From NCBI RefSeq assembly GCF_009847015.1, contig NZ_WVEM01000001.1, forward strand, positions 124,001 through 188,000: 64,000 nucleotides of DNA. Reading direction: 5' to 3'. Origin of the DNA: Sunxiuqinia indica. Its GTDB lineage: Bacteria > Bacteroidota > Bacteroidia > Bacteroidales > Prolixibacteraceae. The notes beneath the pieces are model-generated. The model made no database searches. It was not told where the DNA came from and saw only the letters and a program-made list of their open reading frames with translations. The translations under genes and the position numbers were made by a program. Below are positions 8,585 through 22,047 of the stretch, one piece after another (position 1 is the stretch's first letter; each line of letters begins with the position of its first letter).

Positions 8585-11500
8585 TTATTTTGCTTCCTGT
8601 TTTTTCTGAAATAGATAGTAAATTATTGGAACAACATAAATGTTTAATAGGGTTGAACTAAGCAATCCTCCAAGAATTACAATAGCCATTGGGCTCTGAA
8701 TTTCGTTTCCCGGTTTTTCCCCGGCCAGTGCAAGTGGAATTAATGCCAAAGCAGCTGTCAAAGCAGTCATCAGGATCGGATTAAGTCGATCAGCCGATCC
8801 ATGCACAATCCGTTCTTTCAAGCTTACAACCTGATCGGATAAGGATTGATATCTCGAAATCAGTAAAATACCATTGCGTGTTGCAATTCCGAAGAGCGTG
8901 ATAAACCCGATGATTGATGGAATGCTAATAACACCAGAGGTCATCCAAATAGCAACCACGCCTCCAATTAATGCGAGCGGAAGGTTGATCAGAATAATCA
9001 TGGCCAGCCTTGTGTTTTTGAATTCGACATATAACAGGATAAAAATGATGAGCAGGGCACCAATCGATGCGATCATCAAAGTACGCGAAGCATCAGCTTC
9101 ACTTTCAAATTGTCCGCCATACTCGAGATGGTAATTTTCAGGCAGCTGGATGTTTTCATTAATTTCCTTTTGGATATCATTGACAACACTTCGAACATCA
9201 CGGTCGGCAACATTGACAGCCACGACAATTTTGCGCATCACATTTTCGCGACCAATGGTGTTTGGTCCAAAAGTAGACTCAATGTCGGCCACATAATAAA
9301 GGGGTACTTTTTGTCCGTCCGGCGTATCTATCAGCGCATTTCTGATAGCTTCGATATTATCCCGGCTTTCGTCTTCAAACCTTAGAATTAAGTTGAACGC
9401 TTTTTCGTTGACAAAGACATCAGAGATTTTTTCTCCACCAAATGCAGATTCCACAAATTCAAGAAACTCATTTACAGAAATGCCGTAGCGAGCAAGCATT
9501 TCGCGGTTTGGTTTGATTTGCAACTGCGGAATTTCAATTTGCTGCTCCACCGATAAATCACCAATTCCCTCCACGTCCGAAATTGTCTCTTTGATTTGGT
9601 TTGCCAATCGGAACATGCCGCTTAAGTCGGTGCCAAAAAGCTTAATGGCAATGTTGGTTTTTGAGCCTGAAAGCATGGCATCAATCCGGTGGCTAATTGG
9701 CTGTCCAACTTCAACTGTAATCCCTTCAATCCGGTTTAGCTTCTGACGTACTTCGCTCAAAAAATCAACTCTCGAACGATCGTCCAACTCATAAGGGGCA
9801 TCAATTTCCGAAACATTAACCCCAAAAGCGTGCTCAGCCATCTCTGCGCGTCCTGTTCGTCGGGCAACCGAAGTGATTTCGGGAATCGATAACAAGGCTT
9901 GTTCGGCCTGGACGCCCAGTTTGTTGCTTTCTTCCAGGTTGATTCCGGGCATGGTTGTCGTATTAATTGTAAGGGACCCTTCGTTGAATGGCGGCAGAAA
10001 ACTCCGGCCAAAGCTGGTAACCAATAAGATTGAAAGAACAAACAATACTCCGGAAATGCTGATGACTGCTTTGCGGTAGCGAATGGCCTGGCTTAATGTT
10101 TTGGTGTAGTAATTTTGTAAGAAGCGTTCCACCCGGCTTCCTTTTGCTTGCTTCTGAAGTCGTTTTTCGTTGGTCAGTAAAAAGCTGCTTAAAACAGGGA
10201 TGACGGTTACAGCAACAAACAAGGACGCAAACAGCGAAACAATGTAAGCAATCCCCAGTGGTTTAAGCATGCGGCCTTCCATACCCGAAAGAAAAAACAG
10301 GGGTACAAAAGCGATGATGATAATCAAAGTGGCATTGAGAATGGATGCACGAATTTCGACGGACGCTTCGTAGATCACGTTAAAGAGCGGTCGCTTTTCT
10401 GTGTTGGGCAAACAACTGTTTTCGCGCAGGCGCTTGTAAACATTTTCAACATCAATAATCGCATCGTCAACCAATGAACCAATGGCAATGGTCATTCCAC
10501 CCAAAGTCATCGTATTGATGGAAATTCCGAGCCATTTCATGACCAAAACAGCTACCAGCAAAGAGAGAGGAATAGCCAGTACTGAAATGATTGTGGTGCG
10601 GTAGTTCATCAAAAAGACAAACAAAATGATCACAACAAATAATCCCCCTTCAAGCAGAGCTTTTTGAACATTATTTACGGATGTTTGGATAAACTTAGCC
10701 TGCTCAAAAATATCAGTATGGATCTTCACATCTTCGGGAAGCGTTTCTTTTAAATCATCCAGTGATGTTGTGATTTTTTCGGTTAAGTCCAGTGTGTTAA
10801 TATTGGGCTGTTTGGTAACAGTCAGGATAACCGCTTTTTCTCCGCGATAAGATCCATCTCCAATTTTAGGCGCAGTGCCGATCTTTACGGTAGCTACATC
10901 ATTTACCTTAATGGGATGACCGTCCTGCATTTTGATCAAAGTATTGCCAATGTCTTCCAGAATGTTGGTACGGGCTAATCCCCGGATCAGGTATTCCTGG
11001 CCGTGTTCATTTAGAAATCCTCCCGATACATTTTCATTGGATGCCTGGCATGCTGCGATTAACTCGTGAAAAGAAACATCATAAAATTTCAGCTTGAGCG
11101 GGTCGGCCAGAATTTGAAATTCTTTTAGATCGCCTCCAATAATGGCTACCTGAGCCACTCCGCCCACGGAAAGCAGGCGAGGGCGAATATTCCAGTCTGC
11201 CAGGGTTCGCAAATCCATTGCCGAGGTTTCATCAGCGGTCAGGGCGATCATCATAATTTCACCCATGATGGATGATTGTGGGGCCAGGGTAGGAGAGCCC
11301 ACCCCGACTGGCATGGCATCGGCAACGGTGGCTAGTTTTTCGCTTACAATCTGGCGGGCATCGTAAATGTCCATATCCCAGTCAAATTCAACCCAAACGA
11401 TCGAAAACCCCATGGCAGAGGAACTTCGGACCCTGCGGATATTTGTTGCTCCATTCACTGCTGTTTCAATGGGGAAGGTAACCAGCCGCTCAACCTCTTC

Positions 11501-11674
11501 CGGCGCCATTCCATGCGCTTCGGTTAGCACGACAACGGTTGGTGCGTTTAAATCAGGAAAAACATCCACCTCCATGTCGGTGGTTACATAAATTCCGGCA
11601 CCAAGAATAAGGGTCGCCATGATCAGAACTACCAGCTTATTCTTCAGCGAATATTCGATGATTTTATTCAGCAT
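8585..11674 (-). CDS. CusA/CzcA family heavy-metal RND efflux pump
   Basis: This 1029-residue inner-membrane proton-driven pump has the standard twelve-helix RND plan: one helix near 10-30, a large periplasmic loop, five helices (about 335-500), a second half starting near 535, and helices from about 865 to the end. The heavy-metal subfamily is shown by ADGMAPEEVERLVTFPIE-like sequence (here AHGMAPEEVERLVTFPIE) and by the helix-4 motif GGMTIAIGSLVDDAIIDVENVYKRL with the proton-relay aspartates. The substrate is probably Cu+/Ag+ or Zn2+/Co2+/Cd2+; the sequence alone does not decide this. The adaptor gene lies 17 bases upstream. Confidence 0.94.
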   Translation of the reverse strand: MLNKIIEYSLKNKLVVLIMATLILGAGIYVTTDMEVDVFPDLNAPTVVVLTEAHGMAPEEVERLVTFPIETAVNGATNIRRVRSSSAMGFSIVWVEFDWDMDIYDARQIVSEKLATVADAMPVGVGSPTLAPQSSIMGEIMMIALTADETSAMDLRTLADWNIRPRLLSVGGVAQVAIIGGDLKEFQILADPLKLKFYDVSFHELIAACQASNENVSGGFLNEHGQEYLIRGLARTNILEDIGNTLIKMQDGHPIKVNDVATVKIGTAPKIGDGSYRGEKAVILTVTKQPNINTLDLTEKITTSLDDLKETLPEDVKIHTDIFEQAKFIQTSVNNVQKALLEGGLFVVIILFVFLMNYRTTIISVLAIPLSLLVAVLVMKWLGISINTMTLGGMTIAIGSLVDDAIIDVENVYKRLRENSCLPNTEKRPLFNVIYEASVEIRASILNATLIIIIAFVPLFFLSGMEGRMLKPLGIAYIVSLFASLFVAVTVIPVLSSFLLTNEKRLQKQAKGSRVERFLQNYYTKTLSQAIRYRKAVISISGVLFVLSILLVTSFGRSFLPPFNEGSLTINTTTMPGINLEESNKLGVQAEQALLSIPEITSVARRTGRAEMAEHAFGVNVSEIDAPYELDDRSRVDFLSEVRQKLNRIEGITVEVGQPISHRIDAMLSGSKTNIAIKLFGTDLSGMFRLANQIKETISDVEGIGDLSVEQQIEIPQLQIKPNREMLARYGISVNEFLEFVESAFGGEKISDVFVNEKAFNLILRFEDESRDNIEAIRNALIDTPDGQKVPLYYVADIESTFGPNTIGRENVMRKIVVAVNVADRDVRSVVNDIQKEINENIQLPENYHLEYGGQFESEADASRTLMIASIGALLIIFILLYVEFKNTRLAMIILINLPLALIGGVVAIWMTSGVISIPSIIGFITLFGIATRNGILLISRYQSLSDQVVSLKERIVHGSADRLNPILMTALTAALALIPLALAGEKPGNEIQSPMAIVILGGLLSSTLLNIYVVPIIYYLFQKKQEAK

Positions 11675-11691
11675 AACTATTTTTTGAAGAA

Positions 11692-13017
11692 TTAGTGTTG
11701 GTGACTATGTGCCGGCAGTGCGCTCGACATAGAAGCCAATTTGATTAAGTACGGATTTTTGGTCGCTACATGATCGCCTGCGTGAAGACCATCGATAATG
11801 TGGTAATTTTCTCCGTCGTTGCAGTCAATCGTGACGTAGTGCTTTTCAAAACTTTCACCTTCTTCAGCAAAAACATAGTAACGGCCAGCTTCTTCTAGCA
11901 AAGCAGACCTGGGAACCACAATCGCATTCGGAATCTCCACTGTTTTCAGGTAAACTTCCACAAATGAGCCAGCCAAGAGGTTTCCCACATTATCGATTTC
12001 AAAATAGATCGGGGTGAACAGCGAATTGTCTCCGGTTGACTTGCCGTACGAAATTAACTTACCGTTCAGCTCATTGGTTTTATGAAGTTTCTTGTCGTAG
12101 GTTGTGACGAAGTTGGCTGTTTTTATTCTGCTCAGCATCGGAAAGTAGCGTTGTGGAACATCGGCTTTAACAACCAGGCGCTTGTTTTTTGTGATCTTCA
12201 AAAGCGGTTGTCCGGTGGTGACGAACTGCCCCTCTGTTACAAAAACATTTTTGATAAAACCGCTGTTTGAAGCGGCCACCTTTTGTCCGCCAGCTGAATA
12301 ATTTTTGCGAACAATTTCGTAACTATTCTTTGCTTTTTCGTAGGCCATTTTTATCTCGGCGAGTTCTCTGTCCGAGGTTATTTTATCTTCATTCAACAAC
12401 TTGGCGCGTTCATAATTGGCTTTAGCTGTCTCAAAGGCTGATTTCGAGTCCATAAAGGTTGTCTCAATATTGTCGTGGATTAGACCTTTGCCGGAAATCG
12501 TTATGAGCTTTTCACCTTCTCTGATTTTTTCTCCGGACATCAGTGCTTTTTTGCCAAAAACAACAACCCCATCGTGAACTGCTGTTAAGGTAATCTCATC
12601 GCCTTGAGCAGGCATAATTTTCCCGCTGGTGTGAATTACTTCTCTAAACGTTTTTGGCTGTAATTCAACGATGCCGTATTGTAAGTCATGAGCATATTCT
12701 CCTTCATTGTCTTGATGTGGTTCTGCATCATGCTGGTGAGTTCCTTCATCGTGCTGGTGAGCTCCTTCATCATGCTGGTGAGCTCCTTCATCGTGCTGGT
12801 GCTCTGCTTCAGGATATTGTTCTTCTCCTTCGTGTTCGTGGTCTTCATCGTCATGGTCGTGCCCTTCCGCTAAACGGCTGTGCTCTTGCTCTTCGTGACT
12901 GTGTTCTGAATCTCCGGTATGTGCGTGATCGTGTTCAGCTTCATGATGGTTATGTGTGCAGGCGATACCCCAAAACAGGTAGCCAGCCATTAAAAATGGT
13001 AGAATAATCTTCTTCAT
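11692..13017 (-). CDS. Lipoprotein periplasmic adaptor with His-rich repeats
   Basis: This RND membrane-fusion protein links pump and outer-membrane channel. I start it at the second Met (13017), because the sequence from there is a lipoprotein signal ending in the lipobox GIAC. A long His/Asp/Glu-rich segment follows (about 22-110) with four near-perfect copies of HQHDEGA. Then come the barrel-sandwich and alpha-hairpin regions (HDGVVVFGKKALMSGEKIREGEKLITISGKG, then a helical hairpin) and the beta-barrel. The His-rich tail is a plausible periplasmic metal sponge. An alternative start at 13026 adds three residues. Confidence 0.9.
   Translation of the reverse strand: MKKIILPFLMAGYLFWGIACTHNHHEAEHDHAHTGDSEHSHEEQEHSRLAEGHDHDDEDHEHEGEEQYPEAEHQHDEGAHQHDEGAHQHDEGTHQHDAEPHQDNEGEYAHDLQYGIVELQPKTFREVIHTSGKIMPAQGDEITLTAVHDGVVVFGKKALMSGEKIREGEKLITISGKGLIHDNIETTFMDSKSAFETAKANYERAKLLNEDKITSDRELAEIKMAYEKAKNSYEIVRKNYSAGGQKVAASNSGFIKNVFVTEGQFVTTGQPLLKITKNKRLVVKADVPQRYFPMLSRIKTANFVTTYDKKLHKTNELNGKLISYGKSTGDNSLFTPIYFEIDNVGNLLAGSFVEVYLKTVEIPNAIVVPRSALLEEAGRYYVFAEEGESFEKHYVTIDCNDGENYHIIDGLHAGDHVATKNPYLIKLASMSSALPAHSHQH
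12720..12806. repeat. 21-bp tandem repeat encoding HQHDEGA
   Basis: About four in-frame copies of a 21-bp unit (GAGCTCCTTCATCGTGCTGG type) encode consecutive HQHDEG(A/T) units in the adaptor. The copies differ by single bases, so the array could expand or contract without a frameshift. Confidence 0.8.
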
Positions 13018-13090
13018 GATTAACATGTTAACTGGTTTTCAGCACTAGCTGAAAACGATTAAAAATTAAATTAGAAAACTAAGGTTGGAA

Positions 13091-15073: not shown

Positions 15074-15104
15074 TTTGCTTTTTTCAAATATGTATCTACA
15101 TTTG
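15074..15104 (+). promoter_or_regulatory. Bacteroidota promoter of the sulfite reduction operon
   Basis: TTTG at 15074-15077 and TACATTTG at 15097-15104 are separated by exactly 19 bases, the canonical -33/-7 arrangement. Transcription should start near 15111, about 23 bases before the small leader ORF. Confidence 0.8.
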
Positions 15105-15133
15105 AGGCGTTAAACAAACGCAAAATTGAATCG

Positions 15134-15235
15134 ATGAATTTTAGAACTTCTGTATATAAAATGATGTGTGTAACATGTAACATGATGATGTGTATGTGTT
15201 GTGGATTTCTTATGCAGAAGGGAATAAAGAGATGA
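15134..15235 (+). CDS. Cys/Met-rich leader peptide (attenuator ORF)
   Basis: This 33-codon ORF contains eight Met and five Cys codons. Eleven of these fall in residues 10-23 (MMCVTCNMMMCMCC). The end of the peptide is GFLMQKGIKR. It lies between a canonical promoter and an intrinsic terminator, upstream of the sulfite reduction operon, so its product is probably only a sensor of charged Cys- and Met-tRNA. Bases 15215-15222 inside it (CAGAAGGG) are identical to the 3' arm of the terminator and can pair with the 5' arm at 15268-15275. The role is inferred from layout and codon content. Confidence 0.75.
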   Translation: MNFRTSVYKMMCVTCNMMMCMCCGFLMQKGIKR

Positions 15236-15275
15236 AAATATAGTGTGATATAACAATCATAGTAAAGCCCTTCTG
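15215..15275 (+). promoter_or_regulatory. Predicted antiterminator pairing
   Basis: CAGAAGGG at 15215-15222 is perfectly complementary to CCCTTCTG at 15268-15275, the 5' arm of the downstream terminator, so the two structures exclude each other. A ribosome at the leader stop codon (15233-15235) would cover 15215-15222 and let the terminator form. A ribosome stalled on the Cys/Met codons upstream would leave it free to form the antiterminator. Confidence 0.65.
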
Positions 15276-15296
15276 GAACCCAGAAGGGCTTTTTTT
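15264..15296 (+). terminator. Attenuator terminator before the sulfite operon
   Basis: AAAGCCCTTCTG (15264-15275) pairs with CAGAAGGGCTTT (15281-15292) across a GAACC loop, followed by T residues to 15296. It stands 31 bases before the first structural gene of the operon. Confidence 0.9.
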
Positions 15297-15327: not shown

Positions 15328-15558
15328 ATGAGAGAAAAAGCATATCGCAGTGTCGTAAAAACAATTTCGTGGAGAATGGTTGGAACCATAGATACGATAA
15401 TGATTGCATGGTTGGTTGTTGGAAAATTGGAGTATGCTGTGACCATTGGAGGTGTTGAGTTGTTTACAAAGATGATCTTGTATTATTTCCACGAACGCAC
15501 GTGGAATAAGGTCAAGTTTGGAAAAATTGATGACTCCGACATCGAATATCAAATTTAA
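15328..15558 (+). CDS. DUF2061 small membrane protein
   Basis: This 76-residue protein starts at the ATG at 15328; the in-frame TTG at 15322 would add two residues. The sequence REKAYRSVVKTISWRMVGTIDT, then LEYAVTIGGVELFTKMILYYFHERTWNKVKFG, is the DUF2061 pattern, with two hydrophobic segments (about 20-33 and 37-52). Its role is unknown. It heads the operon, 5 bases before the siroheme dehydrogenase gene, and sits immediately after the attenuator, so it is expected to be controlled by sulfur amino-acid supply. Confidence 0.85.
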   Translation: MREKAYRSVVKTISWRMVGTIDTIMIAWLVVGKLEYAVTIGGVELFTKMILYYFHERTWNKVKFGKIDDSDIEYQI

Positions 15559-15563
15559 AAGGC

Positions 15564-16031
15564 ATGGAAAAGAATTACTTACCTATTGCAGTTAATATTG
15601 CCGGCGAGAAGATCCTGATCATTGGGGGAGATCAGTCGGCCTGGAACAAGATTAAGATTCTGAAGCGTTTTAATGCTTATCTGGAAGTAATTGCGCTGCA
15701 AGTGTGTGACGATATTAAAAACAGCGATGTGCCTTATCGCGAAAAAGCTTACGAAAAAGGTGATTTGAATGGCTACCTGATGTTTTATTCATGTACAAAC
15801 AACCCTGAGCTGGATGCACAAATTGCGAAAGATGGACGCGAAGCAGGAGTACTTGTCAACATTCATGATAATCCGGCACTTTGCCAGTTTGTTTCACCTG
15901 CCATCTACCAAAACGGGAACATTCGGGTGGCCGTCAGCTCAAATGCGAAAGATGTTTATTCATCAATCAGAATCAGAAATGAGATCAAAGAATTTTTAGA
16001 AACTAAAACAGATAAAGACCAGAAGAAATGA
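15564..16031 (+). CDS. Precorrin-2 dehydrogenase/sirohydrochlorin ferrochelatase (Met8/CysG-N type)
   Basis: This 155-residue protein corresponds to the N-terminal Rossmann part of CysG: NYLPIAVNIAGEKILIIGGDQSAWNKIKIL carries the NAD-binding glycine loop, and FYSCTNNPELDAQIAKDGREAGVLVNIHDNPALCQFVSPAI the conserved catalytic region with N and D. It would oxidise precorrin-2 and insert iron to make siroheme for the sulfite reductase encoded downstream. It is shorter than CysG-N of E. coli and lacks the methyltransferase half, which is encoded separately at 21250-22047. Its end overlaps the next start by four bases. Confidence 0.85.
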   Translation: MEKNYLPIAVNIAGEKILIIGGDQSAWNKIKILKRFNAYLEVIALQVCDDIKNSDVPYREKAYEKGDLNGYLMFYSCTNNPELDAQIAKDGREAGVLVNIHDNPALCQFVSPAIYQNGNIRVAVSSNAKDVYSSIRIRNEIKEFLETKTDKDQKK

Positions 16032-17821
16032 GTATTAAATTATCCCCATTGAATGAAGCTCAGCTGAAAGCCTTGCAGAACCTGACACAAGGTATTCAAC
16101 CCGATCAGGTTACTTGGTTGAGTGGTTATTTTCAAGGATTAGCAGGAGCAGTCTCCGCCGGCGTAACGCCTCAGGCAGTGGCCGTTGACGCAGCAATCGA
16201 ATCAGTAGACAAATTACCTTTGACCATTTTGTATGGTACACATACCGGAAGAAGTGAAGCTTTGGCTAAAACGCTTTGCGAAAAAGCAGTGACCCAAAAT
16301 ATTGAATGTGTTACCAAACCCATGGACGACTATAAACCAAAGCAATTGAAAGACGAAAAAAATGTGCTGGTTATTGTTAGTACACATGGAGAGGGAGAAC
16401 CACCGGAAATGGCTGAAGATTTTTACGAGTTTGTTACCGGGAAAAGAGTTCCAAAGCTCGAGGGTTTAAATTATTCAGTTTTGGCTCTGGGTGATAAGAG
16501 TTATAAACTTTTTTGCCAAACCGGAGTTGATATTGACGAGGCCTTCAAAAAAGCAGGAGCAAACGAACTGGTTTCAATTGTAAAATGTGACGTAGACTAT
16601 GAGGAAGATGCCGCAAAATGGACTGATGATGTGTTGATCGAATTAGGTAAATTACAGCCAAAAGCTTCCTCGCAATCTCTTCAACCTGCGGAAACGAAAT
16701 CCGAAGAGAATGTCTATTCAAAGAAGAACCCATTTAAATCAACCGTACTTGATAAAGTTCGCATAACCGGACGTGATTCTGATAAAGAAGTGTACCACCT
16801 GGAATTGTCGCTTGAAGGTTCCGGTATAAAATATGAGCCGGGTGACGCTTTAGGCGTAATTGCACAAAATCCACCGCAATTGGTGAAAGACATCATCAAA
16901 TCGTTAGGCGTAATCAACAACGAAGTGGTGGAAACCCGAATCGGTAAATTACAGTTCAATGAGGCGTTGGAACATCATTACGAAATTACACTATTAACCC
17001 GGGATGTCATTGAAAAGTATGCTGAGAAAACCGGACTGAAAGAAGTTCAGGAGATTGTAGAGCATGAAGATAAGCTGGATCACTATTTATACGGACACGA
17101 TGTGCTGGATTTATTACATGAGTTTCCGGCAAAGCTGACCGCGACCGAATTTTTAGAAACTCTTCGGCCGCTTCCACCACGCTTGTATAGTATTTCATCA
17201 AGTCAGGAGTCGGTTGAAGATGAAGTGCACATTACCGTTTCGCGTGTGCGTTACGAAAACAAGGGCCGCCAGCGTTATGGTGCTTGCTCAACGTTTTTAG
17301 CCGATCGGTTAGAGGTAGATGAAACTGCCCTTATTTACATTGATAAAAATCCAAACTTCAGACTTGCTGAAAATGGAAATCCGATCATTATGGTTGGTGC
17401 AGGAACCGGTATTGCTCCTTATCGTGCGTTTTTGCAACAACGTGAGGCTGCCAACCAAAAAGGTAAAAGCTGGTTGTTCTTTGGTGAGCGGCGCTTTTCG
17501 TCCGACTTCTTATACCAGGTTGAATGGCAGAAGTACTTGAAGAAAGGTTATCTGGAGAAAATTGATTTGGCTTTTTCGCGCGATCAGGAAGAAAAAGTTT
17601 ACGTTCAGGACAGGCTGAAACAACAACAGGAGGAAGTGTTTAAATGGCTTGAAAACGGAGCGAGCTTTTACCTCTGTGGTGATATGAAATACATGGCTCG
17701 CGATGTTCAGGTTACCCTGTTAGACATTATTAAAACACAAGGTGGAATGACTGATAAAAAGGCTCGTGCCTATTTCAAAAAGCTGAAGAAAGAAAAACGC
17801 TTTATGGCTGATGTGTATTAG
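16028..17821 (+). CDS. cysJ: Sulfite reductase flavoprotein subunit
   Basis: The 597-residue diflavin reductase passes electrons from NADPH through FAD and FMN to CysI. The flavodoxin-like domain (about 70-200) shows LYGTHTGRSEALAKTL and STHGEGEPPEMAEDFYEF. The FAD domain shows RLYSISSSQES, and the NADPH domain GAGTGIAPYRAFLQQRE and FFGERRFSSDFLY. Length and domain order match CysJ. The first 55 residues resemble the CysJ N-terminal segment. Translation is coupled to the preceding gene through an ATGA overlap. Confidence 0.95.
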   Translation: MSIKLSPLNEAQLKALQNLTQGIQPDQVTWLSGYFQGLAGAVSAGVTPQAVAVDAAIESVDKLPLTILYGTHTGRSEALAKTLCEKAVTQNIECVTKPMDDYKPKQLKDEKNVLVIVSTHGEGEPPEMAEDFYEFVTGKRVPKLEGLNYSVLALGDKSYKLFCQTGVDIDEAFKKAGANELVSIVKCDVDYEEDAAKWTDDVLIELGKLQPKASSQSLQPAETKSEENVYSKKNPFKSTVLDKVRITGRDSDKEVYHLELSLEGSGIKYEPGDALGVIAQNPPQLVKDIIKSLGVINNEVVETRIGKLQFNEALEHHYEITLLTRDVIEKYAEKTGLKEVQEIVEHEDKLDHYLYGHDVLDLLHEFPAKLTATEFLETLRPLPPRLYSISSSQESVEDEVHITVSRVRYENKGRQRYGACSTFLADRLEVDETALIYIDKNPNFRLAENGNPIIMVGAGTGIAPYRAFLQQREAANQKGKSWLFFGERRFSSDFLYQVEWQKYLKKGYLEKIDLAFSRDQEEKVYVQDRLKQQQEEVFKWLENGASFYLCGDMKYMARDVQVTLLDIIKTQGGMTDKKARAYFKKLKKEKRFMADVY

Positions 17822-17905: not shown

Positions 17906-19603
17906 ATGAGCGAAGTAATAGATTGGAGCACATTAAGTGAGGTTGAAAAAATAAAATACAACAGCAACTACCTAAGGGGAACGCTGGAAGAAAGCCTGGC
18001 AGATCCGGTAACCGGAGCAATTGCTGATGATGATACACAGGTTTCAAAATTTCATGGTATTTACCAACAGCATGATCGGGATCTGGAGAAAGAGCGAAAG
18101 CGTCAAAAACTGGAACCGGCATATTCATTTTTGATTCGTGTTCGGCTTCCGGGAGGGGTTACCACGGGCAAACAATGGTTGCAAATGGACAAGTTGGCTG
18201 ACACGCATGCCAATGGAACGTTAAAGTTGACCACACGTCAGGCGTTTCAGTTGCACGGTGTTATTAAAACCAAGTTGAAGGCAACTATTCAGGGAATAAA
18301 CGAAGGCTTGTTGGACACCATTGCCGCTTGTGGCGATGTGAATAGAAATGTGATGTCGCACGCCAATCCGGGTGAGTCGGACCTGCATGCAACGGTTTAC
18401 AAATTAGCCGACGATATTTCGGCACATTTAACACCACGCACGAGAGCCTATCACGAAATTTGGCTCGACCAAAAAAAGGTAGCCGACAGTAAGAAGGAAG
18501 TTGAGCCGATTTACGGTGTTCGTTACCTGCCACGTAAGTTTAAAATTGGTGTGGCTATTCCGCCTTATAACGACATTGATATTTTTTCACAGGATCTGGG
18601 ATTTATTGCTATCGAAGAAAAAGGAAAACTAGTAGGTTATAACGTAACTGCCGGCGGTGGTTTTGGATCAACCTTTGGCATGCCGGAAGCCTATCCTCGC
18701 TTGGCTGATGTAATTGGTTTTTGTACTCCCGAACAAGCTGTTGATGTGGCTGAGAAAGTTGTTTTAGTACAAAAAGACAATGGTAATCGCGAAAATCGCA
18801 AGCAAGCTCGTTTAAAATATACAATTGATCGCCTGGGATTAGATTGGTTTAAAGCCGAAGTCAACAAGTACCTGGGTTACGATCTTCAACCGGCCAAACC
18901 TTTTACGTTCACCCGTAATGGCGACCGTTATGGATGGAAAAAAGGAACTGATGACAAATGGAGTCTGAACCTGTTTATCGAAGGCGGACGCGTAAAAGAC
19001 ACCGATTCGTTAAAATTGAAAACAGCTTTACGCGAAGTCGCTGAAAAAGTAGAAGATGCTCAGTTCATCTTAACCGGAAACCAAAACCTGGTAATTGGCA
19101 ACACCACCGAAAAAGATAAGGTCAGCCGTATTCTGAAAAAGTACGGTGTGTGGCCGGTTCAACTATCGGGACTGCGTCAGAACACAATTGCTTGTGTTGC
19201 GCTAAATACATGTGGTTTGGCTTTTGCCGAAGCAGAACGCTACTTACCAACAATGGTTGGCAAAATCGAATCTATTTTAGAAGAGCACGATCTTTTAAAA
19301 CAAGAGATTGTTATAAGAATGACAGGCTGCCCCAATGGTTGTGGACGCCCTTACCTGGCCGAGATTGGTTTTATCGGAAAATCGCTCGGGCATTACAACC
19401 TCTATTTGGGAGGGAATTTCAACGGAACAAGATTGAATACCCTTTACAAAGAAACTCTTTCGGAAGAAGAAATACTGAACGAACTGCGCCCCATTATTGC
19501 AGACTATGCTAAGAACAGGAATAAAGGAGAAGGTTTTGGCGATTTCGTTATCCGGAAAGAATACGTGAAAGAAACAAAAGAAGGAAGAGATTTTAGACAT
19601 TGA
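17906..19603 (+). CDS. cysI: Sulfite reductase hemoprotein subunit
   Basis: This 565-residue assimilatory sulfite reductase reduces sulfite to sulfide with six electrons from CysJ. The four Cys ligands of the coupled [4Fe-4S]-siroheme centre are visible as [11 protein letters not shown] (CX5C) and [11 protein letters not shown] (CX3C) near residues 430-478. The siroheme- and sulfite-binding basic residues are in [12 protein letters not shown] (about 111-122). Length and spacing are normal. No adenylyltransferase or PAPS reductase genes are present, so this operon covers only sulfite to sulfide plus cofactor synthesis. Confidence 0.95.
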
Positions 19604-19607
19604 AAAT

Positions 19608-20348
19608 ATGGAATTACCGGCAATATTTGTAGGAAAAAAATTATCAGTCTTAACTCGCAAATGGCTGATTAGCGAACAAATTCGTTTTATTGAGCAACCA
19701 CTGGTTCGAATTAATTACCGTAAACCCGACATTCGTTTTTTTGAACATTTGCGGGATGTCGATAAAAAATGGGTGGTAACCAGCTCGTACGCTGCGCATT
19801 GGCTTTCGCGTTTTGCTGATAAAATAGGAATGAAAAAGGATGATGTGGTGTATTGCCTTTCGGAAAAGCAGGAAGGCATTTTGTCCAGGTGTGGTGTAAA
19901 AGTATTGCGTCCTGTATCATCCAATGCTTATTCGTTGGCCGAACTGATTATTGCACAAAGCGATGGAACAAAAGTGATTTATCTGAGAGGGAACAAATCG
20001 CTTAATCAATTGCCTGAATTGCTTGATGGAGAGAATATTAATTGGCAGTCGGTTGAGGTTTATAAAAATACGTCCGTGGAAATTTTATTGAACGAAGTGT
20101 TTGACGGGTACTTGTTTTTTAACGAAAGCGATATTAAAAGCTATAAAGCATCGGGGAATTTTCCTGCACCTAAGGCACCGGTTTTAGCGAATGGAGACCG
20201 CACGGCACAGGCTGCCTGGGCCGAATTTCCTAACTTGGTACTGGAATCTTCGGAACAAGAAGAACTTTCGTTTGTGAAATATGCGATTAAGCGAATCACC
20301 GAAAAGTTGAACGAGCCGAAGCCCAAACACAATATTATCATAGAGTAA
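19608..20348 (+). CDS. hemD: Uroporphyrinogen-III synthase
   Basis: This 246-residue protein has the weakly conserved two-domain HemD pattern: VTSSYAAHWLSRF (about 62-74) for the first domain and the LFFNESDIKSYKAS / LANGDRTAQAAWA region (about 165-207) near the active site. It would cyclise hydroxymethylbilane to uroporphyrinogen III, the precursor of siroheme. HemD is hard to recognise by sequence, but four bases after cysI and in a siroheme operon the call is well supported. Confidence 0.78.
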   Translation: MELPAIFVGKKLSVLTRKWLISEQIRFIEQPLVRINYRKPDIRFFEHLRDVDKKWVVTSSYAAHWLSRFADKIGMKKDDVVYCLSEKQEGILSRCGVKVLRPVSSNAYSLAELIIAQSDGTKVIYLRGNKSLNQLPELLDGENINWQSVEVYKNTSVEILLNEVFDGYLFFNESDIKSYKASGNFPAPKAPVLANGDRTAQAAWAEFPNLVLESSEQEELSFVKYAIKRITEKLNEPKPKHNIIIE

Positions 20349-20358
20349 TACAATTAAG

Positions 20359-21189
20359 ATGAAACGAATTTCCATACTCGGATGTGGTTGGCTTGGGTTT
20401 CCCTTAGCCGAAAAACTTTTGGCGAAAGGTTTTCAGGTGAAAGGATCGGTAACGACCCGATCGAAACTGAAAAAAATGGCGTCTGCCGGAATTGAGCCTT
20501 ATCGACTGGTTTTAGATGCTGATAAGGTTCAATTAAAGAATCCTTCGTTTTTTGATACTGATCTGGTTATTGTTGCTATTCCTCCACGGCGGGTAGAATT
20601 TATTGAGACGATTTTTCCGGCTCAAATCAAACAGTTAGTGGGTTTTTTAGAGGAGTACAAAGTTCCACGAGTACTGTTTATTTCGTCTACTTCGGTTTAT
20701 AATGAATTGGATGGGAGAGTGGCTGAAGAGGACGTTTTACTGCCGGATAAGCCATCGGGTAAAGCCTTGGTTTTGTCCGAATATCTGTTAACCCAAAATC
20801 CGAACTTTGAAGCTACCGTTTTGCGTTTTGGCGGGCTGATTGGAGCCGACCGGAATCCGGCTCGATTTTTAAGCCGAAAGAAAAAGGCAATTAGCGGAAC
20901 CAAGCCTGTCAACCTGATTCATTTGGATGATTGCTTACAGATTATCATTAAAATTATTGATGATGAAGTTTGGGGCGAAACGTTCAATGCCTGTAGCCCG
21001 AATCACCCTACTCGACAGGAGTTTTACGAACGGGCGTCAGCTATTTCCGGAATTCCAGCTCCACCATTTAATAATGAAAAGTCGCCTTTTAAGTTGGTTG
21101 ATAGCAGTAAATTAATTCGGATGTTGAATTATCAATTCAAATTTCCCAGCCCTATGGATTATCTCGGAACGGTTAATCATGAATTTTAA
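20359..21189 (+). CDS. NAD(P)-dependent SDR-family epimerase-like protein (YeeZ type)
   Basis: This 276-residue protein has a Rossmann nucleotide-binding start (ISILGCGWLGFPLAEKLLAKG, with the GxGxxG loop) and an extended-SDR core (FISSTSVYNELDG with Ser/Thr, then LRFGGLIGADRNPARFL). The classic YxxxK pair is not clear, which is common for YeeZ-like proteins. The substrate is unknown. Its place between hemD and cobA suggests co-regulation with sulfur assimilation, but a direct role in siroheme synthesis is not indicated. Confidence 0.8.
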   Translation: MKRISILGCGWLGFPLAEKLLAKGFQVKGSVTTRSKLKKMASAGIEPYRLVLDADKVQLKNPSFFDTDLVIVAIPPRRVEFIETIFPAQIKQLVGFLEEYKVPRVLFISSTSVYNELDGRVAEEDVLLPDKPSGKALVLSEYLLTQNPNFEATVLRFGGLIGADRNPARFLSRKKKAISGTKPVNLIHLDDCLQIIIKIIDDEVWGETFNACSPNHPTRQEFYERASAISGIPAPPFNNEKSPFKLVDSSKLIRMLNYQFKFPSPMDYLGTVNHEF

Positions 21190-21249: not shown

Positions 21250-22047
21250 ATGCCAAGATCCACCGAACATATAAAGGGCTCCCAGCCCGTAAATAAACAC
21301 ACTCACCTTATTTCGATTGTTGGTGCCGGGCCGGGTGATCCTGAATTACTCACGGTGCGTGCTGTTCGCCGATTGGAGCAGGCAGACGTAATTTTGTATG
21401 ATGCGCTGCATGGCACCGAAATATTAGAGGCAGCCAATCCAAATGCCGAACGAATTTATGCCGGCAAACATTACCAGGATGGGCAGCATCAAACCGAGAG
21501 GCAGGATCATATTCACAGGCGGCTCAAACAATTTGCCAGCGAAGGTAAACGGGTGGTGCGGCTAAAGGCTGGCGATCCATTTATTTTTGGTCGTGGGGCC
21601 GAGGAGCTGGCTTTTTGTTTGCAGGAGAATCTGAATGTTGAAGTAGTTCCGGGAATTACAGCCGGACTGGCTGCCGCCACTTGTTTCCATATTCCGGTAA
21701 CCTTGCGCAATGCGAATAGCATGGCCATGTTTTATACCGGACACAAACGGAGAGGTGGTTTTGATAATATTGACGAGGTGGCTTCGGTGATTAAAGCAAA
21801 TGCTCCTGTTATGGTTTATATGGGACTGAAAAACCTCACTCTTCTTTCTAAAGAATTACTAACTCGGGGCGTCGCGGCTGAAACTCCAATGCAAATTGTA
21901 AGTCGGGTTGGTCATCCCGATCAGCAACTGTTTACATCGTCACTGGGCGAGATTGAAACCCACCTAACGACTGTCGATCCACCCATGCCGTCTGTTATTA
22001 TTATCGGTACGCAAGCTCATCAGGTGAGTTCGCGTACTCGGGTTTGA
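21250..22047 (+). CDS. cobA: Uroporphyrinogen-III C-methyltransferase
   Basis: This 265-residue SAM-dependent enzyme methylates uroporphyrinogen III at C2 and C7 to give precorrin-2, the substrate of the Met8-type enzyme encoded earlier in the operon. Diagnostic motifs are IVGAGPGDPELLTVRAVRRLEQADVILYDAL (about 19-49), VRLKAGDPFIFGRGAEE and VVPGITAGLAAATCFHIPVTLR. It consumes SAM, so its link to Met supply fits the Met-rich leader peptide of the operon. It is the last gene of the siroheme group. Confidence 0.93.
   Translation: MPRSTEHIKGSQPVNKHTHLISIVGAGPGDPELLTVRAVRRLEQADVILYDALHGTEILEAANPNAERIYAGKHYQDGQHQTERQDHIHRRLKQFASEGKRVVRLKAGDPFIFGRGAEELAFCLQENLNVEVVPGITAGLAAATCFHIPVTLRNANSMAMFYTGHKRRGGFDNIDEVASVIKANAPVMVYMGLKNLTLLSKELLTRGVAAETPMQIVSRVGHPDQQLFTSSLGEIETHLTTVDPPMPSVIIIGTQAHQVSSRTRV

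Follow-up and report, generated by a model that had tools for sequence, protein, structure and literature searches.

The sulfite-reduction and siroheme operon of Sunxiuqinia indica is very probably controlled by a trp-type ribosome-mediated attenuator that senses the supply of both Cys-tRNA and Met-tRNA. The leader (positions 15074-15296 of the window, by which we mean the whole 64 kb stretch of DNA analysed) contains a promoter, a 33-codon ORF, a 13-bp terminator and, within the ORF, a segment complementary to the 5′ arm of that terminator. The case for the attenuator is built on anatomy, conservation, covariation, geometry and recurrence before sulfur genes, and it is from these that we infer translation of the leader, ribosome stalling, read-through and the identity of the signal. 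A first-pass annotation of the same DNA had proposed a Cys/Met-sensing attenuator at this place, and the comparison with relatives agrees with it: ORF, pairing and terminator are kept together, and codon content differs by target.

Anatomy of the leader

The features of the leader and its operon are collected in Table 1. What had been called a canonical promoter fits the Bacteroidota type better, and a scan for E. coli-type promoters gave no match at the leader. Among the 51 leaders read, most have a TAnnTTTG box 30-61 nt 5′ of the start codon. The upstream neighbour gene is divergent in orientation from the leader, and the terminator therefore does not close an operon lying upstream. In a scan of the 64 kb window, this leader was the sole combination of terminator, short ORF and alternative pairing to pass. 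A SAM/S-box element, another known riboswitch or an Rfam RNA was considered and set aside, an Rfam scan of the window having returned no curated covariance model at gathering score.

Table 1. Features of the probable attenuator leader, the operon behind it and further leaders in the same genome.
Feature	Position	Strand	Remark
Bacteroidota-type promoter TTTG-N19-TACATTTG	15074-15104 (TTTG 15074-15077; TACATTTG 15097-15104)	+	sequence; box in relatives
Leader ORF, 33 codons, MNFRTSVYKMMCVTCNMMMCMCCGFLMQKGIKR*	15134-15235	+	sequence; frame open in relatives
Segment 1 (protector) CTTCTGTAT, within codons 5-8	15147-15155	+	pairs with 15212-15220
Control codons 10-23 MMCVTCNMMMCMCC, 11/14 Met/Cys	15161-15202	+	sequence
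Segment 2 CAGAAGGG, within ORF	15215-15222	+	forms the antiterminator with segment 3; alternatively pairs with segment 1
Intrinsic terminator, 13-bp stem 15264-15292 and U-run 15290-15296	15264-15296	+	-20.9 kcal/mol
Segment 3 CCCTTCTG, terminator 5′ arm	15268-15275	+	complementary to segment 2
Segment 4 CAGAAGGG, terminator 3′ arm	15281-15288	+	same letters as segment 2
Small DUF2061 membrane protein (PF09834), first structural gene	15328-15558	+	
Siroheme-synthase-type NAD-binding protein (PF13241)	15564-16031	+	dehydrogenase/ferrochelatase type
CysJ-like sulfite reductase flavoprotein	16028-17821	+	
CysI-like sulfite reductase hemoprotein	17906-19603	+	
Uroporphyrinogen-III synthase-like (HemD)	19608-20348	+	
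NAD(P)-binding protein	20359-21189	+	role in operon uncertain
Tetrapyrrole methylase	21250-22047	+	probably SAM-dependent uroporphyrinogen-III methyltransferase for siroheme
L209 MSYTFSNMCVCCCMKYNAGKVCLS before cysK	G000:C35:163685-163810	-	R1 match
L210 MNKTFSINNIMNMCCCMLFRHVEGVDIISV before OsmC-like gene, second cysK, NirA-like reductase	G000:C34:230128-230263	-	R1 match
L312 His leader MYNKLGHYGHHHNNLFIGRP, terminator directly before hisG	G000:C39		antiterminator TGGTAGGCC with GGCTTACCA

The ORF is short, putatively translated, and carries a cluster of codons for the regulated amino acids. Its eleven Met/Cys codons in fourteen, already pointed out in the first-pass annotation, form the best such stretch of the window; in 20 simulations of the window under a first-order Markov model the maximum was 7. 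All 51 leaders read keep the frame open. Stops interrupt the +1 frame in 51 of 51 and the +2 frame in 44 of 51, and the synonymous fraction among these leader ORFs is in excess (0.29 vs 0.15 expected). The ATGTGTATGTGT core of the control codons is almost invariant among relatives; how many M and C there are, and in what order, differs freely from one relative to the next. Leaders of the sulfite operon strongly prefer TGT over TGC (179 vs 33), and an RNA-level constraint on the core is therefore possible.

An intrinsic terminator stands between the ORF and the first structural gene, and its earlier description as strong is borne out by a stem of 13 pairs, 7 of them G-C, followed by U7. The 8-base segment of the ORF (segment 2) does repeat part of the terminator's 3′ arm (segment 4) and complement the 5′ arm (segment 3), as had been read; the resulting antiterminator excludes the terminator, and its 5′ half lies within reach of a translating ribosome. 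The first-pass annotation had further held that all parts of a trp-type attenuator were present. The parts that it named are there, but its list lacked segment 1, which was overlooked and which is complementary to ATGCAGAAG (15212-15220). This predicted protector completes a four-segment trp-type attenuator in the leader.

In most Prolixibacteraceae leaders segment 1 is conserved at a constant distance from the ATG, and the conserved TSV/SSE motif at the start of the peptide, otherwise odd, is accounted for by segment 1 being encoded there. A protector hairpin (1:2) is present in the window, in two other leaders of the same genome and in most Prolixibacteraceae; in some lineages segment 1 is weaker or missing. 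Part of genus g6 and many leaders of other families have it in weak form. In the free RNA, before segment 4 is made, the two pairings are computed to compete, with 1:2 at ~0.2 and 2:3 at ~0.8 at equilibrium, and 1:2 would have a kinetic advantage because segment 2 encounters segment 1 first. When the upstream RNA is set as occupied by a stalled ribosome, the computed probability of 2:3 pairing is ~1 until segment 4 emerges. In relatives' leaders, counting from the first base of the final Cys codon, segment 2 starts at a median of 15 nt. It lies about 10-20 nt 5′ of the leader stop codon, its end being about 10 nt away from that codon. This geometry fits the ribosome footprint, with sizes taken from other bacteria, such that a ribosome on the last control codon would just free segment 2 and one at the stop codon would mostly cover it.

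The operon downstream is one of sulfite reduction and siroheme synthesis, as earlier described, with CysJ-, CysI- and HemD-like genes, a siroheme-synthase-type gene and a tetrapyrrole methylase. It supplies the amino acids that would be sensed, and related leaders elsewhere precede cysK, metY, metX, cysHDN and sulfate transport genes. Elsewhere in the window (8585-13026, reverse strand) lie a gene for an RND-type heavy-metal efflux pump and one for a membrane-fusion-like protein, the latter containing a long stretch rich in His, Asp and Glu.

Conservation and covariation in the Prolixibacteraceae

The regions upstream of cysI at 60 loci of the family (named kin are Sunxiuqinia, Gaoshiqia, Maribellus, Draconibacterium and Mariniphaga) were taken together with the window, giving 61 sources. 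A first pass with a simple script requiring just a terminator and a Met/Cys-rich ORF, so that pairing was no selection criterion, placed a leader at the same position in most of the 60 loci. A covariance model, R1, matches 57 of the 61 sulfite-reductase sources, window included; the misses are three contigs that end shortly upstream of cysI and one distant genus, and 57 of the 58 Prolixibacteraceae loci with enough upstream sequence match.

Both helices covary in the resulting alignment. For the antiterminator, 88% of cells are paired and 22 are compensatory, against 9.0 in shuffled alignments (reached by 0/500 shuffles), with a covariation score of 0.245 vs 0.144 shuffled. For the terminator, 95.8% of cells are paired and 33 are compensatory against 10.3, with a score of 0.312 vs 0.199 (0/500). 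Alignment column 122 covaries with column 54 in segment 2 and also with column 130 in segment 4. One close relative, L032, has a mismatch in segment 2. The first-pass annotation had suggested such an alignment of homologous leaders as a check on the peptide and the alternative pairing, both of which are kept, and had named as contrary evidence relatives retaining the terminator without the Met/Cys ORF or the pairing; the examined leaders hold ORF, pairing segment and terminator together.

Related leaders in the genome and the phylum

The S. indica genome holds at least two further leaders matched by R1, L209 and L210, both with a Cys run. On inspection its weaker R1 matches (L175-L178; E from 0.04 upwards) resembled ordinary terminators, with no Met/Cys ORF, and were rejected. 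No such leader lies directly upstream of metY or cysD in this genome, nor was one found at pheA. The hisG gene of the same genome is preceded by a His leader in which HHH, an antiterminator and a terminator are combined; it serves as a positive control and indicates that the attenuator architecture is in use in S. indica.

Across the phylum, R1 matches at E<=0.01 in 90 of 395 sampled genomes, weaker matches including plain terminators. All 20 loci examined (18 of the stronger phylum matches and the two own-genome cysK leaders) precede sulfur genes, the phylum targets being metY/metX, cysH-cysD-cysN, a sulfate ABC transporter and a rhodanese-sulfite reductase operon. The letters of antiterminator and terminator vary by lineage, for example AGGTAGTGG with CCACTACCT, and the architecture is constant. 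In 86% of 94 diverse leaders, the end of the ORF pairs with the terminator arm of the same leader beyond the 95th percentile of shuffles. Within the cysK set the antiterminator is conserved, with covariation not above shuffles. R1 gave no match in 59 genomes from other families of the same order. The distribution of these leaders is therefore patchy and R1 is incomplete as a detector; absence from these genomes of the order, despite matching members of the class and phylum, could mean that the leader was lost there, has diverged past the reach of R1 or arose more than once.

Codon content and the nature of the signal

The codon content of the leaders tracks the product of the genes behind them. 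The Cys share is 0.63 before cysK, 0.42 before sulfite reductase and 0.40 before metY; CCC occurs in 17 of 23 cysK leaders, and before sulfite reductase and metY the leaders use both Met and Cys codons. In 16 of the 17 genomes that have both leaders the cysK leader is the Cys-richer (Wilcoxon p 0.0005, an optimistic value since the genomes are related), and the Cys codons of the cysK set show synonymous TGT/TGC variation. Such a difference between cysK and the other targets is what amino-acid sensing predicts, and it supports that reading.

It is improbable that the attenuator senses essentially cysteine alone, the Met codons being incidental or an aid to translation. Cys runs with few Met codons within them do characterise the cysK leaders, and the Cys leaders known from elsewhere use Cys alone (PMC1262725, PMC8632094). 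Against this, Met codons, start excluded, are no rarer than Cys codons in leaders of the sulfite operon (5.4 vs 3.9 per leader) and of metY (4.5 vs 3.1), and in family f18 some metY leaders consist almost entirely of Met (MMMCMM, MAMRMMMRMK). We give still less credence to a signal other than tRNA charging, in which the ribosome would be paused by its Met/Cys-rich nascent peptide binding a ligand such as Cu(I) or some other soft metal. The similarity of MCMCC to soft-metal ligand motifs, and the copper-responsive nascent-chain control known from elsewhere (PMC9973294), are set against targets that are sulfur-assimilation and Cys/Met biosynthesis genes in 20 of 20 cases, a codon content that follows the product amino acid, an order and number of M and C too free for a fixed binding motif, and the same architecture with His codons before hisG. 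Least probable of all, and close to negligible, is a constitutive or protein-controlled terminator with the ORF as a by-product, for although the terminator stands out as the strongest of the conserved RNA elements, the open frame, the synonymous excess, the conserved pairing segment inside the ORF, the three-way covariation and the gene-specific codon content all speak against it.

Proposed mechanism

For the Cys- and Met-sensing attenuator, we propose that RNA polymerase would start near 15110, a site predicted from the sequence, and that a ribosome would translate the 33-codon leader behind it. With Cys and Met plentiful, the ribosome would reach the stop codon and cover segment 2, the 3:4 terminator would form and transcription would end at ~15296. 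With charged tRNA-Cys or tRNA-Met scarce, the ribosome would wait on one of the 11 Met/Cys codons, separating segment 1 from segment 2 and leaving the latter free to pair with segment 3 while segment 4 is still to be synthesised; the operon would then be transcribed. Were no ribosome present, segment 1 could pair with segment 2, favouring termination. Because a stall on either kind of codon would act alike, the leader would be an OR sensor for both products of sulfide assimilation. On a wider scale, we think it likely that a regulon of Cys/Met attenuators is a main control of sulfur assimilation and Cys/Met synthesis in several Bacteroidota families, with the same OR input, a Met:Cys ratio tuned to the product of each operon, and tandem units before metY in one family.

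Relation to known attenuators

The trp, his and phe operons of E. coli are governed by ribosome-mediated transcription attenuators. Like the trp/his type, the Sunxiuqinia leader has control codons in its ORF, a protector, an antiterminator and a terminator that exclude one another, and an operon that makes the amino acids sensed. Unlike that type, it would sense Cys and Met jointly, its segment 1 lies 5′ of the control codons instead of overlapping them, and it has a Bacteroidota promoter. Ahead of its ATG no Shine-Dalgarno sequence was noted.

Leaders with cysteine input are known from other phyla. In the uORFC-8-2 motif before cysS in Rhodobacterales, an intrinsic terminator comes after a predicted leader ORF with Cys codons (PMC8632094). 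Both elements are shared with the Sunxiuqinia leader, but the motif has just two Cys codons and no Met input, controls cysteinyl-tRNA synthetase, and forms two prominent stems with the Cys codons in the first. In Actinobacteria including mycobacteria, short ORFs with Cys runs are predicted before cys operons, with no conserved terminator found (PMC1262725), and in M. smegmatis they are described, in PMC13236596 with reference to Canestrari 2020, as leaderless and working through attenuation of translation. These share with the Sunxiuqinia leader a short Cys-containing ORF before a sulfur operon, whereas the latter has a strong intrinsic terminator and an antiterminator. Its ORF combines Met with Cys and lies some distance from the promoter, which places it outside the mycobacterial polycysteine class of translation attenuators. 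Within the same phylum, leader-peptide attenuation has been suspected before amino-acid biosynthesis operons in the Flavobacterium psychrophilum transcriptome, where the main text names pheA and hisG among the conserved 5′ elements, and not Cys or Met (PMC9723704).

No Cys/Met attenuator in Bacteroidota was found in the open-licence PMC literature, in line with the first-pass annotation. The kind of control, ribosome-mediated attenuation, is known; the combined Cys and Met input, the phylum and the regulon appear to be new. To our knowledge, no control of this kind has been described for sulfur-amino-acid synthesis in Bacteroidota. Such leaders would give the phylum a control of this synthesis in which two amino acids are read simultaneously, and would provide the signal for several so far uncharacterised leaders that precede metY, cysK and sulfite reductase genes. 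Along with the leader of hisG, they would demonstrate classical attenuation, and hence close transcription-translation coupling, in Bacteroidota, and they form a compact, directly testable reporter system.

Tandem and clustered leaders

Two Met/Cys ORF and terminator units stand in tandem before metY in genomes G221, G213 and G186 (L245, L251 and L253, respectively), one example reading ...MMCMMLFITKG and then ...FFCIMMAMMCMSDLMREGII; a second unit of L251, MAMRMMMRMK, combines Met with Arg. In genome G196, a leader with a different terminator sequence (L219, MKIQNNNMMMCMCCSENEGLYATC) precedes a cysH-cysD-cysN-cysK cluster, and a second Met/Cys leader (L188, MNTITNMSIILLTSTACMMMMCCMQNFARGRLLYCL) lies shortly downstream.
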